A stretch of DNA of 55,411 nucleotides from an uncultured Oscillospiraceae bacterium (GTDB lineage: Bacteria > Bacillota > Clostridia > Oscillospirales > Oscillospiraceae), in NCBI GenBank assembly GCA_947629795.1, contig CANRFC010000016.1:1-55411 (forward strand), given 5' to 3'. This document shows positions 26,648 through 30,760 of this stretch, piece by piece. Position numbers and translations under genes: made by a program. Position 1 is the first letter of the stretch. Every line of letters starts with the position of its first letter. Below the pieces are notes generated by a model. It saw only the letters and a program-made list of their open reading frames with translations. It made no database searches and was not told the origin of the DNA.

Positions 26648-28615
26648 TCACATATGTGCAATATAGCTGCAAATCAGCTCTGCGGTCTCCTCCGGGCCGA
26701 TGGAGCTGTCCACGCACAGCTCGTACCCGTGGGGATTGCCCCAATCCCGGCCGGAGATGCTCTTGTAATAGGCCCTTCTGGCACTGTCCGAGCGGGCAAG
26801 GCTTCTCCGCCCGGCCTCCTCGGTGTCGCCGTACATCTCCATGACCTTCTTGACCCGGTACTCCTCCGGGGCGTAGATGAAGACCCGGACGATGTCTTTC
26901 CTGTCCCGCAGGACATAGTCCGCGGCCCGGCCGATGATGACGCAGGCGCCCTGATCGGCGATCAGATTGATGGCCTTTTCCTGGGCAATGACCGCCTGGC
27001 GCACGGCGCTGGTGCTCAGGTAGAGCTCCCGCATGACGGCGTTTTCGTCGGAGTTGATGCCGGAAATGAACTCCTTGGCGAGGCCGCTCTGTTGGGCGGC
27101 CAGAGCAGTCATCTCCTTGTAGTAGCAGGGGACGCCCAGCTTCTGAGCCACCAGTTGGCCCACACGCTTGCCCGCCGAGCCGTGTTCCCGCGCTATGGTG
27201 ACGATCACGCCGGGATGGGAGGGCTGCAGCACGCCCTCAGCACAGATCGGCTCCGGACGGCGGTCGGTGCCCATGGTCTTCCACACCCGGACCACCACTG
27301 CCGCCGTGATGACCATGGCGATGACGTCGGCTATGGGAGCGGCCCACAGGATGCCCATGATGCCCAAACCCATGGGCATGAGGATGGCCAGGGCAATGAG
27401 CAGGATGTCCCGGAGGACCGACAGGGGAACGGCGGCCTTGGCGTGGCCGATGGACTGCAGGAACATGGCACAGGCCTTCTGCAGGCAGGTGAGGATGACC
27501 AGAGAGAGGTAAATGCGCAGACAGCTGATGGCAAAGGCGGTGTACAGCTCGCCGCCGTCGGTGCCGAACATCCGCACAAAGACCAGGGGGGCGCCCTCAA
27601 ACAGAACGGTGGCGATGACACACACCGTCAAGGTGGAGAGCACCACCAGCTTGAAGGCCTCCTTGACTCTGCCGTACAGCCTGGCGCCGTAGTTGTAGCC
27701 CATGATGGGCAGGGCCCCGGCAGTGATGCCGCAGGCGATATTCAGGATGATCTGGAACAGCTTGATGATGACCACGAAGGCGGACAGGGGGATGTCCGGG
27801 CCGTAGACGCTCCGCTCACCGTAGGACTTGAGCAGGATGTTATTGGCGATGGTGGTGGCCACGATGCAAAGCTGGGTCAAAAAGCTGCCCGCGCCCAAGG
27901 GCAGAACAGGCTTGAGGAACTTCCAGCCGGGCACGAAGTCGGACGCCTTCACCCGGAAGACCCGGCTCTTCCTCAGGTAGGCCACGCAGACGAGAAAGCT
28001 GACAAATTGCCCCAGGACGGTGGCGATGGCTGCCCCCCGGATGCCCCAGCCCAGCACAAAGATGGCCACCGGGTCTCCGATCATGTTGATGACAGCCCCC
28101 ACCAGCATAGCCGCCATGGAATACCTGGGGCTGCCGTCGGCGCGGATGACGGAGGCAAGAGTATTCTGCACCAGGGCAAAGGGCATCATGATGAAAATAA
28201 TGCGGCCGTAGTCCCGGGTCAGGGCGATGGTGGCCTCGGTGGCGCCCAAGGCGTAGAACACGCGGTCCCCCAGGGCGTAACACACCGCGATGATGACCAC
28301 GCCGGAGAGGAAGGAGCCCAGGATGCTGTTGGCCACCGACCGGCCGGCGGCAGAGGTGTCTCCCTCCCCCTGGGACAGGCTGAGGAAGGTGGCCATGCCG
28401 TCGCCGAACAGCACCGACGCGCCCCAGCCGATGACGGTGATGGGAAATACGATGCCGGTGGCGGCATTGCCCAGATAGCCCACGCCGTTGCCCACGAAGA
28501 TCTGATCCACAATGTTGTAAAGGCAGGAGATGATAAGCGCCAGTGTGCTGGGGATGGCGAACTGCCTCAGCAGCTTTCCTATCCGCTCCGTTCCGAGATA
28601 ATTGTTTTCCTGCAT
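26648..28615 (-). CDS. MATE efflux transporter fused to a cytidylate kinase-like domain
   Basis: The 655-residue protein begins with a MATE-family drug/cation antiporter of 12 membrane helices (about 10-450; key stretches LYNIVDQIFVGN, SVIRADGSPRYSM and IMGYNYGARLYGRVKEAF). Residues about 470-655 form a cytosolic domain like Cytidylate_kin2: VTIAREHGSAGKRVGQLVA with a P-loop-like GSAGK, then YYKEM, IGRAADYVL and FIYAPEEYRVKK. ATG 28615 follows AAGGAGGTC. Its leader carries hairpin copy C and a second terminator, so expression is probably set by RNA folding. The domain may couple nucleotide binding to transport; whether it is catalytic is unknown. Confidence 0.88.
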   Translation of the reverse strand: MQENNYLGTERIGKLLRQFAIPSTLALIISCLYNIVDQIFVGNGVGYLGNAATGIVFPITVIGWGASVLFGDGMATFLSLSQGEGDTSAAGRSVANSILGSFLSGVVIIAVCYALGDRVFYALGATEATIALTRDYGRIIFIMMPFALVQNTLASVIRADGSPRYSMAAMLVGAVINMIGDPVAIFVLGWGIRGAAIATVLGQFVSFLVCVAYLRKSRVFRVKASDFVPGWKFLKPVLPLGAGSFLTQLCIVATTIANNILLKSYGERSVYGPDIPLSAFVVIIKLFQIILNIACGITAGALPIMGYNYGARLYGRVKEAFKLVVLSTLTVCVIATVLFEGAPLVFVRMFGTDGGELYTAFAISCLRIYLSLVILTCLQKACAMFLQSIGHAKAAVPLSVLRDILLIALAILMPMGLGIMGILWAAPIADVIAMVITAAVVVRVWKTMGTDRRPEPICAEGVLQPSHPGVIVTIAREHGSAGKRVGQLVAQKLGVPCYYKEMTALAAQQSGLAKEFISGINSDENAVMRELYLSTSAVRQAVIAQEKAINLIADQGACVIIGRAADYVLRDRKDIVRVFIYAPEEYRVKKVMEMYGDTEEAGRRSLARSDSARRAYYKSISGRDWGNPHGYELCVDSSIGPEETAELICSYIAHM

Positions 28616-28639
28616 AACGGGACCTCCTTGTTTTCAGGC

Positions 28640-28669
28640 AAAAAAACAGCGCATGGTAAGCCCATACGC
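28640..28669 (-). terminator. Leader terminator in front of the MATE-kinase fusion
   Basis: On the minus strand GCGTATGG (28669-28662) pairs with CCATGCGC (28656-28649) and seven T residues follow (28646-28640), all within the 5' leader. The left arm can also pair with the 3' arm of hairpin copy C, which makes the two structures mutually exclusive. Confidence 0.7.
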
Positions 28670-28670
28670 C

Positions 28671-28737
28671 GAAAAAAGCGGCACATGGGTGCGCATCCGT
28701 ACCGTGATCAGATTTACGCGCGGATGCGCCACATGTG
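28671..28737 (-). promoter_or_regulatory. Hairpin RNA motif copy C (candidate mepA/guanidine-IV-type riboswitch)
   Basis: On the minus strand CACATG and GCGCATCCG pair with CGGATGCGC and CATGTG, enclosing a loop that begins CGCGTAAATCTGA. Six T residues follow the stem at once. The loop shares GCGTAAATC with copies A (28915-28966) and B (29261-29315). All three lie before MATE-locus genes. The mepA motif, shown to be the guanidine-IV riboswitch, is known to precede MATE genes in Clostridia; I could not check the consensus, so the identity is a proposal. Confidence 0.55.
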
Positions 28738-28765
28738 TCGTTGATTGCCTATTCAATTCTCAGAT

Positions 28766-28794
28766 ATTATATGCAAAATTTCCTTTTCCTGCAA
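28766..28794 (-). promoter_or_regulatory. Promoter of the MATE-kinase fusion gene
   Basis: On the minus strand TTGCAG (28794-28789), a 17-bp spacer and TATAAT (28771-28766) are followed by about 30 bases and then hairpin copy C. The leader to the ATG is about 145 bases, long enough for RNA-based control. Confidence 0.7.
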
Positions 28795-28880
28795 ATGGGA
28801 TTTTGACCAAAATTTTGAGATGCGCGTCCGGGCAAAGTTTCACAAAAATTGCGAGAACAGGCTTTTTACGCAAAAACCCT

Positions 28881-28908
28881 TTGACAAATCTCGGAAAAGT
28901 GCTAAAAT
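28881..28908 (+). promoter_or_regulatory. Promoter of the 79-aa protein / second MATE operon
   Basis: TTGACA (28881-28886), a 16-bp spacer and TAAAAT (28903-28908) place the transcript start near 28915, right at the base of hairpin copy A. The transcript would therefore begin with the hairpin itself. Bases 28795-28880 between the two divergent promoters are AT-rich and carry no further feature I can name. Confidence 0.65.
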
Positions 28909-28914
28909 ATAATC

Positions 28915-28966
28915 AAACGTGTGGCGTAACTGCGTAAATCCAGTTTTCGCCCCACGTTTATTTTTT
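28915..28966 (+). promoter_or_regulatory. Hairpin RNA motif copy A (candidate mepA/guanidine-IV-type riboswitch)
   Basis: AAACGTGTGGCG (28915-28926) pairs with CGCCCCACGTTT (28948-28959), with one opposed T/C, and is followed by the T-run 28961-28966, so it is a terminator at the very 5' end of the transcript. An inner ACTG/CAGT stem holds the loop CGTAAATC. GCGTAAATCCAG (28932-28943) is identical in copy B. The 79-aa gene starts 22 bases later. Confidence 0.6.
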
Positions 28967-28987
28967 AGAACAGGAGAACGAGAGACC

Positions 28988-29227
28988 ATGAAACGAGTCA
29001 AGGCGGCCTGTATCTGCCAGACCCTTCACTTTATGCTGAAGGACGGCGCGGAGCAGCAATGGGCGGTCAACCAGGTCAAGCAGGATGTGGAGCACTATAA
29101 GCAGGGCCTGGAGCGCAACCGGACAAAATACAGGATCGTGGAGGAGACCACACAGCCCGACGGCTCTGTGATCCTCAAGGTCATCAAGCAGTACAACGCC
29201 AGCCCCGTGGGCGACTACTTGGACTGA
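28988..29227 (+). CDS. Small conserved-looking 79-aa protein between two RNA hairpins
   Basis: ATG 28988 follows AGGAGAAC at a good distance and the frame has 79 codons. The protein (MKRVKAACICQTLHFMLKDG at the start, DGSVILKVIKQYN near the end) has no signal peptide or membrane helix; it looks like two or three helices followed by a beta strand pair. I do not know a function. It lies downstream of hairpin copy A and upstream of copy B and the second MATE gene, on one likely transcript. That context suggests a role connected to the compound exported by the MATE pumps, such as sensing, buffering or modifying it; this is inference. Confidence 0.75.
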   Translation: MKRVKAACICQTLHFMLKDGAEQQWAVNQVKQDVEHYKQGLERNRTKYRIVEETTQPDGSVILKVIKQYNASPVGDYLD

Positions 29228-29260
29228 AGCCGCATCTGCAACAGAATATTTTTTGATCAA

Positions 29261-29315
29261 AGTGCGTGGCCAAAGAGGCGTAAATCCAGCTTCTCTTTGG
29301 CCACGTGCTGTTTTT
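29261..29315 (+). promoter_or_regulatory. Hairpin RNA motif copy B (candidate mepA/guanidine-IV-type riboswitch)
   Basis: AGTGCGTGGCCAAAGAG (29261-29277) pairs with CTCTTTGGCCACGTGCT (29293-29309) around a loop holding GCGTAAATCCAG (29278-29289), the same 12 bases as in copy A. Five T residues follow at 29311-29315. The stem sequences of copies A and B differ while the loop is kept, as expected for a functional RNA. It lies 34 bases after the 79-aa gene and 21 before the second MATE gene, so it controls read-through between them. Confidence 0.6.
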
Positions 29316-29335
29316 GTGTGTCTGGAGGGACATAT

Positions 29336-30760
29336 ATGGAACACAAGGCAAACGATTTTTTGGAGACGCAGAGCGTAGGGTCGCTGATGCGGCGTTACGC
29401 CGTCCCCTGTGTCATCTCCCTGCTGGTGGCGGCGCTCTATAACATTGTGGACCAGCTCTTCATCGCCAATGCCAGCTACCTGGGCTCCTACGGCAACGCC
29501 GCCAACACGGTGGTGTTCCCTATGACGGTGGTGGCCCTGGCCGTTGCCGTGATGATCGGGGACGGCTGCTGCGCCTTTGTCAGCATTGCCCTGGGCGGGG
29601 GGAGAAAGGACGACGCCCACAGGAGCATCGGCAGCGCGGTGTTGCTGTGCGTGATCGCCAGTCTGGTCCTCACCGCCCTGTACCTGCTCTTTCAGGAACC
29701 CATCCTGATCCTGTTCGGCGGCAGAGTGAACGAGGAGACCTTCCACCAGGCCAAGGAGTATTTCTTTTGGATCACGGTGGGTATCCCCTTCTATATGTTC
29801 GGGCAGGCGCTGAATCCCATCATCCGCTCCGACGGCAGCCCCAGGTTCGCCATGGCTTCCACCCTGGCCGGGGCGGTGGTCAATATCATTCTGGACCCTG
29901 TCTTCATCTTCGTGTTCCGGTGGGGGATGATGGGCGCGGCGGTGGCCACCGTGCTGGGCCAGGTGCTCACGGCCGCCCTGGCGGTGTGGTATCTCTGCCA
30001 CATGAAGGCGGTGCGGCTGGAGCGCGCCAGCTTCCGGCTCCATGGCCGTCTGGCCCGGAAATACCTGGCCTTGGGCATCACCAGCTTCCTCTCCCAGATC
30101 TCCCTGGTGGCCTCCATGGCGGCGGTCAACAACATGATCCGGACCTACGGCGCCCTGGATCCGGTATTCGGGCAGGAGGAGTATGCCCAGATCCCCATGG
30201 CGGTGGTGGGCATCGTGATGAAGTTCTTCCAGATCGTCATTTCCATCGCCGTGGGCACGGCGGCGGGCTGTATCCCCATTGTGGGCTACAACATCGGCGC
30301 AGGCCGCAAGGACCGGGTCAAAAGCCTGTTCACCCGCCTGCTGCTGACGGAAGCGCTGGTGGGGGCGGCGGCCCTGCTCATTGTGGAGCTGTGCCCTGGA
30401 CAGCTCATTGCCCTGTTCGGCGCGAAAAATGAGAGCATCCATTACACACAGTTCGCCGTCAGGAGCTTCCGCATCTACCTGTGCATGATGATCTTCGCCA
30501 CTGTGAACAAGGGGACCTTCATCTTCCTGCAATCTCTGGGCAAGGCGGTGGAGTCCACCCTCATCTCCCTGGTGCGGGAGGTGGTCTTCGGCGTGGGCTT
30601 TGCCCTGCTGCTGCCCCGGTCCTTCGGCCTGGACGGTGTGCTCTACTCCATGCCGGTGTCGGACCTTCTGACCTTCGTGATCGCGGCGGCAGTCATCCTG
30701 CGGACCTACCGGGAACTGGGCCGGTCGCCGGTGAGCAGGCGGCAGAAGTCCTCCTCCTGA
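29336..30760 (+). CDS. MATE-family efflux transporter
   Basis: The 474-residue protein is a 12-helix MATE antiporter with family stretches LYNIVDQLFIAN, NPIIRSDGSPRFAM and IVGYNIGAGRKDRVK. It exports cationic drugs or toxic metabolites in exchange for Na+ or H+. ATG 29336 has TGGAGGGAC upstream; the longer frame overlaps hairpin copy B. Unlike the divergent MATE protein it has no kinase-like tail. Control by hairpin copy B suggests a shared inducer with the other pump. The 3' end overlaps the convergent gene at 30706 by 55 bases. Confidence 0.92.
   Translation: MEHKANDFLETQSVGSLMRRYAVPCVISLLVAALYNIVDQLFIANASYLGSYGNAANTVVFPMTVVALAVAVMIGDGCCAFVSIALGGGRKDDAHRSIGSAVLLCVIASLVLTALYLLFQEPILILFGGRVNEETFHQAKEYFFWITVGIPFYMFGQALNPIIRSDGSPRFAMASTLAGAVVNIILDPVFIFVFRWGMMGAAVATVLGQVLTAALAVWYLCHMKAVRLERASFRLHGRLARKYLALGITSFLSQISLVASMAAVNNMIRTYGALDPVFGQEEYAQIPMAVVGIVMKFFQIVISIAVGTAAGCIPIVGYNIGAGRKDRVKSLFTRLLLTEALVGAAALLIVELCPGQLIALFGAKNESIHYTQFAVRSFRIYLCMMIFATVNKGTFIFLQSLGKAVESTLISLVREVVFGVGFALLLPRSFGLDGVLYSMPVSDLLTFVIAAAVILRTYRELGRSPVSRRQKSSS

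Follow-up and report, generated by a model that had tools for sequence, protein, structure and literature searches.

Several described riboswitch classes come close to the elements considered here, either in their gene context or in the way they control transcription. Guanidine-IV (the mepA motif, GGAM-1) and its variant Gd4v precede MATE genes, act through termination control and carry conserved nucleotides near the terminator loop (available parts of PMC7736828, PMC9788692 and PMC11611296). The accessible portion of PMC9788692 describes guanidine-IV as a pair of hairpins linked through a pseudoknot, of which the 3' hairpin is the terminator, and Gd4v as enriched in gut samples. Typical genes are sugE for guanidine-IV, a transaminase for Gd4v, and MATE and GNAT for both. 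Closest in mechanism is HMP-PP (the thiS motif), in the available text of PMC6478431 a very small aptamer inside an intrinsic terminator with an abnormally conserved loop, aptamer and terminator being mutually exclusive parts of a genetic ON switch; its authors remark there that simple terminator stems were met often and quickly left aside. The Na+ riboswitch (DUF1646 motif) precedes transporter genes, shares an aptamer strand with the terminator and is also of the ON type (PMC9337991, available part).

Two elements of the locus described here, copies A and B, share with guanidine-IV and Gd4v the position before MATE genes, a link to termination and conserved nucleotides near the terminator loop, but form one nested hairpin, mostly right behind a -10 box, instead of two pseudoknotted ones. 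Like HMP-PP, they are terminator-embedded and have exclusive folds; whereas HMP-PP serves thiamin genes and may contain a pseudoknot (same partial source), the A/B class stands mostly before MATE genes, comprises helices P1 and P2 with two joining strands and reaches no Rfam cut-off. Among the matches listed, 218 of 232 downstream ORFs were assigned to other gene kinds than thiamin biosynthesis, in a BLAST assignment that covered a set of chosen representatives. The Na+ riboswitch differs in its two extended stems with a conserved P1 base and P2 loop (PMC9337991, available part), and the A/B class is without an Rfam match at cut-off.

The first-pass annotation of this DNA had proposed the mepA/guanidine-IV identity or, failing that, an undescribed regulatory RNA, and the second alternative fits best, with copy C as a further class. 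A covariance-model scan found no family at cut-off: Rfam 15 gave no match at the gathering score over the window (the whole stretch analysed, 55,411 nt of a contig from an uncultured Oscillospiraceae bacterium), and at 20 + 17 further element-bearing loci no family reached its cut-off at the elements, although for guanidine-IV this null result is qualified by a library that may lack the model. At E<=10, five listings fell in 28560-29380, all far below cut-off; SAM-II (21.6 bits, cut-off 44, over the copy A promoter) and four miRNA families were taken as chance. Sub-cut-off overlaps elsewhere, namely mir-9256 at L059 (33.6 bits, cut-off 80), MIR6135 at L074 (30.6, cut-off 99) and Atu_C9 at L287 (30.2 bits, cut-off 40, E 0.0004, 3' part only), were attributed to hairpin likeness, and other listings at those loci, tRNAs included, lay away from the elements. 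No description of the motif was recognised in the open-licence papers searched, and supplements or subscription papers may hold one; the available parts of PMC9788692, PMC7736828, PMC11611296, PMC6478431, PMC9337991, PMC6429828, PMC11109978, PMC8632094 and PMC11477304 contain no such motif.

Layout of the locus

The features of the window that bear on the argument are as follows.

28881..28908, plus strand: copy A promoter, from sequence, with TTGACA at 28881-28886 and TAAAAT at 28903-28908
28915..28946, plus strand: predicted copy A mini-aptamer (R2 45.4 bits, E 1.5e-10; R1 71.8 bits; both models trained with copy A)
28915-28918/28943-28946, 28919-28923 and 28924-28926/28931-28933, plus strand: copy A P1, J1/2 and P2
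28934-28942, plus strand: copy A J2/1, GUAAAUCCA
28915..28966, plus strand: competing intrinsic terminator of copy A, whose 5' arm is the P1 5' strand, J1/2 and the P2 5' strand
28988..29227, plus strand: gene for a 79-aa protein that matches neither Pfam nor NCBIfam, located between the two copies A and B
29260..29292, plus strand: predicted copy B mini-aptamer, operon-internal (R2 36.6 bits, E 5.5e-8; R1 53.9 bits, copy B being in the R1 training set)
29260..29316, plus strand: competing intrinsic terminator of copy B
29336..30760, plus strand: MATE transporter gene 3' of copy B (Pfam MatE 111.8 bits; TIGR00797 157.9 bits, over its cut-off)
28766..28794, minus strand: putative copy C promoter, TTGCAG, 17 nt, TATAAT, from sequence only
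28699..28743, minus strand: copy C conserved core, second RNA class (R3 66.8 bits, R3 built with copy C)
28671..28737, minus strand: copy C terminator hairpin (28682-28737) with U-rich tail (28671-28682)
28640..28670, minus strand: second terminator-like hairpin with U-run, 3' of copy C
26648..28615, minus strand: MATE transporter fused to a cytidylate-kinase-like domain, 3' of copy C (Pfam MatE, Cytidylate_kin2, PF13189)

The plus-strand unit thus runs from promoter through copy A, the 79-aa gene and copy B to the MATE gene, and the minus-strand unit from promoter through copy C and the second terminator-like hairpin to the MATE-cytidylate-kinase-like fusion gene. The window contains exactly three occurrences of the sequence GCGTAAATC, at 28711-28719 (minus strand), 28932-28940 (plus) and 29278-29286 (plus), a count that none of 100 dinucleotide shuffles reached (shuffled mean 0.16); copies A and B have the longer GCGTAAATCCAG in common. 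All three sites sit in hairpins ahead of U-runs, with energies of about -20 kcal/mol (z -5.0) for copy A, -32.1 kcal/mol (z -6.6) for copy B and -30.5 kcal/mol (z -2.3) for copy C, or -45.6 kcal/mol (z -4.7) when the hairpin behind copy C is included.

These observations bear out part of what the first-pass annotation had read as three copies of one hairpin RNA, with a fixed loop and a covarying stem, in front of MATE pumps. The three hairpins before U-runs are there, but only A and B belong to one class. The picture of a fixed loop on a variable stem is incomplete, as the 5' strand of the stem is conserved too (consensus CAACGUGURGC); covariation is present, and a competing P1/P2 fold is what covaries. 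The MATE context recurs in other genomes, but here copy A directly precedes the 79-aa gene, followed by copy B and then the MATE gene.

Conserved core and competing terminator

At the level of sequence, the conserved part of the A/B class is a candidate mini-aptamer of about 32 nt, P1-GNGYN-P2-GUAANUCCR-P1', and not the hairpin loop. From the fetched loci 195 aligned rows were obtained, of which 121 with the conserved strand were kept, 4 were duplicates and 70 were dropped. The dropped rows were mostly opposite-strand mirror matches, together with plain terminators lacking the conserved strand (for example at L080, L082, L083, L090, L132, L136, L140, L145, L148 and L150); two of them, L066 at 1372 and L146, are probably true variants. 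The parse of the members relied on the anchor NUAANN[CU]C and on the first 12 positions, P1 and P2 playing no part in it. The 106 distinct members so defined consist of P1 (4 bp), J1/2 (GNGYN), P2 (GCN...NGC), J2/1 (GUAANUCCR) and P1'. J1/2 positions 1 and 3 are G in every member. Positions 2, 3, 4 and 8 of J2/1 (U, A, A, C) were set by the search anchor, so the invariance of UAA and of the last C is partly by design; all 106 members have C at position 7, where the anchor permitted C or U, and 102 have U at position 6.

Both helices show compensatory change. In P1, pair 3 is A-U in 50 members, G-C in 35, G-U in 15 and U-A in 4 (standard in 104 of 106, with 39 double changes), pair 4 is C-G in 86, U-G in 16 and U-A in 3, and pair 1 is standard in just 80. 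In P2, pair 2 is C-G in 98 members, U-A in 4 and U-G in 1, and pair 3 takes six standard types over 87 of the 106, with 44 double changes. Over P1 and P2 together, 679 of 742 cells are paired, where 2000 shuffles averaged 580 and reached 600 at most. Taken one by one, the observed values of P1 pairs 1 and 3 and of P2 pair 3 were reached by none of the 2000 shuffles, that of P2 pair 2 by 1, of P1 pair 4 by 32 and of P1 pair 2 by 120; P2 pair 1 hardly varies and was matched by all 2000. Thinning at 80% identity left 16 sequences with 102 of 112 cells paired. A MAFFT alignment (A4) of 73 of 75 thinned sequences, from which L100 and L123 were omitted for poorly parsing P2, a choice that slightly favours the structure, contains 57 cells with changes on both sides, where shuffles gave 18.1 and none of 500 reached the observed number; its covariation score of 0.406 falls to at most 0.081 when slid, and its numbers of doubly changed pairs and of pair types were reached by 20 and 5 of 500 shuffles. 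It should be noted that these tests correct for relatedness only in part.

The core overlaps a second fold. In the minimum-energy fold, 104 of the 106 members have 7 or more of their opening 12 nt paired with bases lying 3' of the aptamer, and an 8-nt stretch with 6 or more U follows in 102. The P1 5' strand, J1/2 and the P2 5' strand thus double as the terminator's 5' arm, which makes the two folds mutually exclusive. By pairing, 98 members have such a 5'-strand terminator, 4 are mixed, 3 unclear and 1 of another kind. That one, L112, pairs J2/1 and the P2 3' strand with a downstream complement, and the same design occurs outside the 106 in L282, L287, L302, L309, L312, L291 and L021; members of this kind are under-detected by the current models. 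In L112 (1440-1498, minus strand), L282, L287, L302, L309 and L312 the terminator sequesters the J2/1 strand and not the 5' strand. That a single core occurs with two terminator designs speaks for selection on the core and not on the terminator. The P1/P2 fold alone amounts to +0.3 kcal/mol in copy A and -3.5 in copy B, weak against terminators of -19.9 and -32.1, so the default state should be OFF.

Promoter position points to the start of the RNA. A -10 box (TATAAT, at most 1 mismatch) stands 3-13 nt before P1 in 186 of 225 distinct upstream regions among the matches listed (shuffled mean 40.6), exactly 7 nt before it in 119 of these 186; with an added -35 box (at most 2 mismatches) the count is 151 of 225 against 9.8 in shuffles. 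In copy A the box ends 6 nt before P1. This spacing suggests that the RNA most likely begins at P1; copy B, like other second copies, lies inside an operon.

Distribution, downstream genes and the copy C elements

The genome search confirmed that the element recurs in related genomes, mostly before MATE genes. The copy A region has a BLAST match in 8 of 101 family genomes, its own included. Model R1, built from 13 sequences, matches at E<=0.001 in 91 of 400 family genomes and 15 of 291 class genomes, both upper figures because plain terminators that lack the conserved strand are among these matches. The spread is patchy: of ten genomes listed from the same genus, only the own genome and G014 have an R1 match. 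R2 finds the element in 9 of 398 phylum genomes, 5 of them outside the class, and has three matches in the own genome: A, B and one on contig C4 preceding a CarD-like gene. A strict DNA pattern run over the contigs of 84,980 species returned at least 119 stretches in records named Oscillospiraceae, Lachnospiraceae, Blautia and Faecalibacterium and, among the matches listed, also Lawsonibacter, Pseudoflavonifractor, Yanshouia, others and one MAG named Synergistaceae; a short pattern was noisy, most of its matches being by eye without hairpin and U-run. Viral contigs L271, L272 and L273 also carry a main-class element, placed before a 64-aa ORF that received no assignment.

An ORF follows the element in 119 of 121 loci of the covariance-model set and, among the matches listed, in 113 of 119 of the pattern set, the two sets partly overlapping. 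ORFs were picked automatically and assigned by BLAST to representatives; gene names come from Pfam on one representative each, ABC and TetR being named by eye. The covariance-model set comprises MATE (87), the 79-aa protein (9), CarD-like (6), nitroreductase, rubrerythrin and kinase-like genes (2 each), ABC, MFS, UvrA, TetR and a membrane protein (1 each) and 6 ORFs without assignment. The listed pattern matches comprise MATE (64), the 79-aa protein (23), an 81-aa Veg-like protein (10; the L160 representative scores 25.7 bits for PF06257, cut-off 25), CarD-like (5), membrane protein (2), rubrerythrin (1) and 8 without assignment. MATE genes make up most of both sets (87 of 119, and 64 of 113 among the matches listed), so that the diversity of genes depends on few examples of each other kind. 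By eye, phylum matches L283, L285 and L288 precede CarD-like genes and L282, L284 and L287 MATE genes. That a conserved cis-regulatory RNA precedes MATE genes, as the first-pass annotation had supposed, is strongly supported by this recurrence together with the covariation, the terminators and the several kinds of downstream gene.

Some gene contexts are observations in their own right. The 79-aa protein (MKRVKAACICQTLHF...) recurs behind main-class elements and is carried by 17 of 101 family genomes. The Veg-like gene follows the element in records of Ruminococcus and other Clostridia (L154, L155, L157, L160, L185, L187, L204, L209), and stand-alone cytidylate-kinase-like (PF13189) genes do so at L076 and L151.

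Copy C, taken by the earlier reading as the third copy, has a conserved core of its own and founds a second RNA class of similar design, separate from A/B. It is unmatched by R1 (E up to 0.05) and by R2 with filters off (E up to 10); by eye it has no P1 and departs from the A/B class at position 1 of J1/2 and position 8 of J2/1. The class C core reads CGACACA-P2-GUAARYCUGAUYACGGNAC, and GCACGUAARYCUGAUYACGGUACGG is retained in the terminator loop upstream of homologues of the copy C gene in G030 and G029. Both classes place GUAARUC after P2. The pattern GTAARYCTGATYACGG occurs in 20 of 250 family genomes, its reversed control in none; of the 20, 18 show a GACACA flank ahead of the pattern and a P2 hairpin that can be made out by eye, and L320 and L323, where the flank is missing, look like chance matches. 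The 18 C-type loci stand before a MATE gene (6) or an MPxNxFQ membrane protein (12, L336 by eye). Alignment A5 holds 14 of the 18 sequences, the other four being identical there to included ones. In these 14, P2 covaries, with 9 cells changed on both sides against 3.0 (U-A/C-G, G-C/A-U); the pair types were reached by 500 of 500 shuffles and the doubly changed pairs by 381 of 500, so these two counts are not in excess.

Model R3, built from these 14 sequences, scores 69.1 bits at L170, 62.8 at L152 and 58.4 at L178, all outside its training set. Each of the three loci has a main-class element as well, at distances of about 160 nt, 400 nt and 3 kb. L152 and L170 seem to represent one region in related genomes. 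Behind the R3 element lie a MATE gene in L170 and an MPxNxFQ gene in L178; no intact MATE or MPxNxFQ ORF was read in L152. Searched over 17 C loci, R2 found no C-type core and gave two clear matches elsewhere, in L336 and L327. A tandem second terminator-like hairpin like that behind copy C was read in L326, L327, L333, L334 and L335. An N-terminus MPKNKFQ, similar to MPxNxFQ, stands behind the main-class elements L105 and L267.

Proposed switch and rival explanations

With moderate confidence, copies A and B can be read as uncharacterised terminator-embedded cis-regulatory RNAs, most likely riboswitches of the gene-ON type. The class combines a conserved candidate aptamer, covarying helices, several unrelated gene families and an expression platform, as riboswitches in general do. 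The conserved unit, its covariation, the alternative pairings, the terminators, the promoter position and the gene contexts can be read from the sequences themselves; from them we infer antitermination by binding, a small-molecule type of ligand, the ON direction and the order of gating. By default, the nascent leader would fold as a strong terminator, in which the P1 5' strand, GNGYN and the P2 5' strand pair with downstream sequence, and transcription would stop about 50 nt after its start. A ligand would hold the early-made mini-aptamer, that is P1, P2 and both conserved joining strands, and with the terminator arm thus occupied the polymerase would read on into the 79-aa gene and the MATE gene. 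Copy A would gate the whole operon and copy B the MATE gene again, and copy C, representing a second class built on a broadly similar plan, would gate the divergent MATE-kinase gene. Against this reading stand the very small size of a 4-bp P1 and a 3-bp P2 for an aptamer, and a gene list (CarD-like, Veg-like, rubrerythrin, UvrA, nitroreductase) that points to no single metabolite.

The same switch could also be operated with the antiterminator held by an RNA-binding protein or a trans-acting RNA, which we regard as rather unlikely. The RAT elements held by BglG/LicT are short antiterminator hairpins with internal loops that overlap a terminator. The A/B layout resembles theirs, and the downstream genes look like a stress or xenobiotic set more than one pathway. 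This explanation was examined for two antiterminator families and for the 79-aa protein. The BglG-type domain CAT_RBD occurs in 4 of 22 element-bearing genomes, the own genome not among them, and is absent from the other 18; LoaP exceeds its cut-off in none of the 22, with weaker NusG-level matches in all; and the 79-aa protein, with its 17 carriers among 101 family genomes, is missing from element-bearing genomes such as G020 and G014. All three were therefore rejected, the two families as general partners and the 79-aa protein as trans factor. As none of them is general, a small molecule is the first choice for the partner and another protein the second. It is highly improbable that A and B are ordinary constitutive attenuators or a mobile repeat whose conserved strand has no sensing role. 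Terminator-like hairpins are indeed common near transcription starts and the copies are short, but the joining strands are conserved over several families and classes, the fold that covaries is not the terminator, two terminator designs share one core, and an ORF follows nearly every element in both sets counted above.

Identity with guanidine-IV or Gd4v is hardly credible. What speaks for it is the shared position before MATE genes and a terminator with conserved nucleotides, along with the gut enrichment of Gd4v (available part of PMC9788692). Those RNAs need a 5' hairpin pseudoknotted to the terminator, and here that first hairpin is missing, P1 coming right after the -10 box. This promoter argument does not extend to the operon-internal copy B, but copy B matches the same one-hairpin model R2. 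No Rfam match reached cut-off, in a library that may lack the guanidine-IV model; and no ORF among the 232 listed was assigned to sugE, a transaminase or GNAT, in a BLAST assignment that covered a set of chosen representatives. Just as improbable is attenuation by a leader peptide, in which the strand would encode a peptide (GTG TGG CGT AAC TGC GTA AAT CCA) and the ribosome would pick the fold. A frame is open through copy A (ORF 28919-29227), and GTA AAT CCA can be written by eye for copy B and L007. There is, however, no space for a ribosome-binding site between promoter and frame, and the loop that separates the conserved strands can have anything from 2 to 8 nt, with no three-nt period. 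The idea was rejected because the frame breaks in some members, being interrupted by TAG in copy 1 of L053 and shifted in L054.

To return to the riboswitch reading, it may tentatively be extended to both classes, a possibility we hold somewhat short of probable: two undescribed, related, terminator-embedded riboswitch classes would lie side by side. Both would have GUAARUC in common and would gate, in gut Clostridia, exporters of the MATE type as well as small membrane proteins. Their ligands may be two related compounds of the gut, either toxic or used in signalling, much as is supposed for guanidine-IV and Gd4v. If the riboswitch reading of A and B is true, a recurrent RNA switch of gut Clostridia has been left unmodelled, probably because it resembles a plain terminator, and its 32-nt core would be a very small aptamer. 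The two terminator designs would offer a clean test of one aptamer coupled to transcription in two ways. As the element precedes efflux pumps and stress genes, its ligand would reveal the purpose of the pumps and the compound against which these bacteria are guarded.
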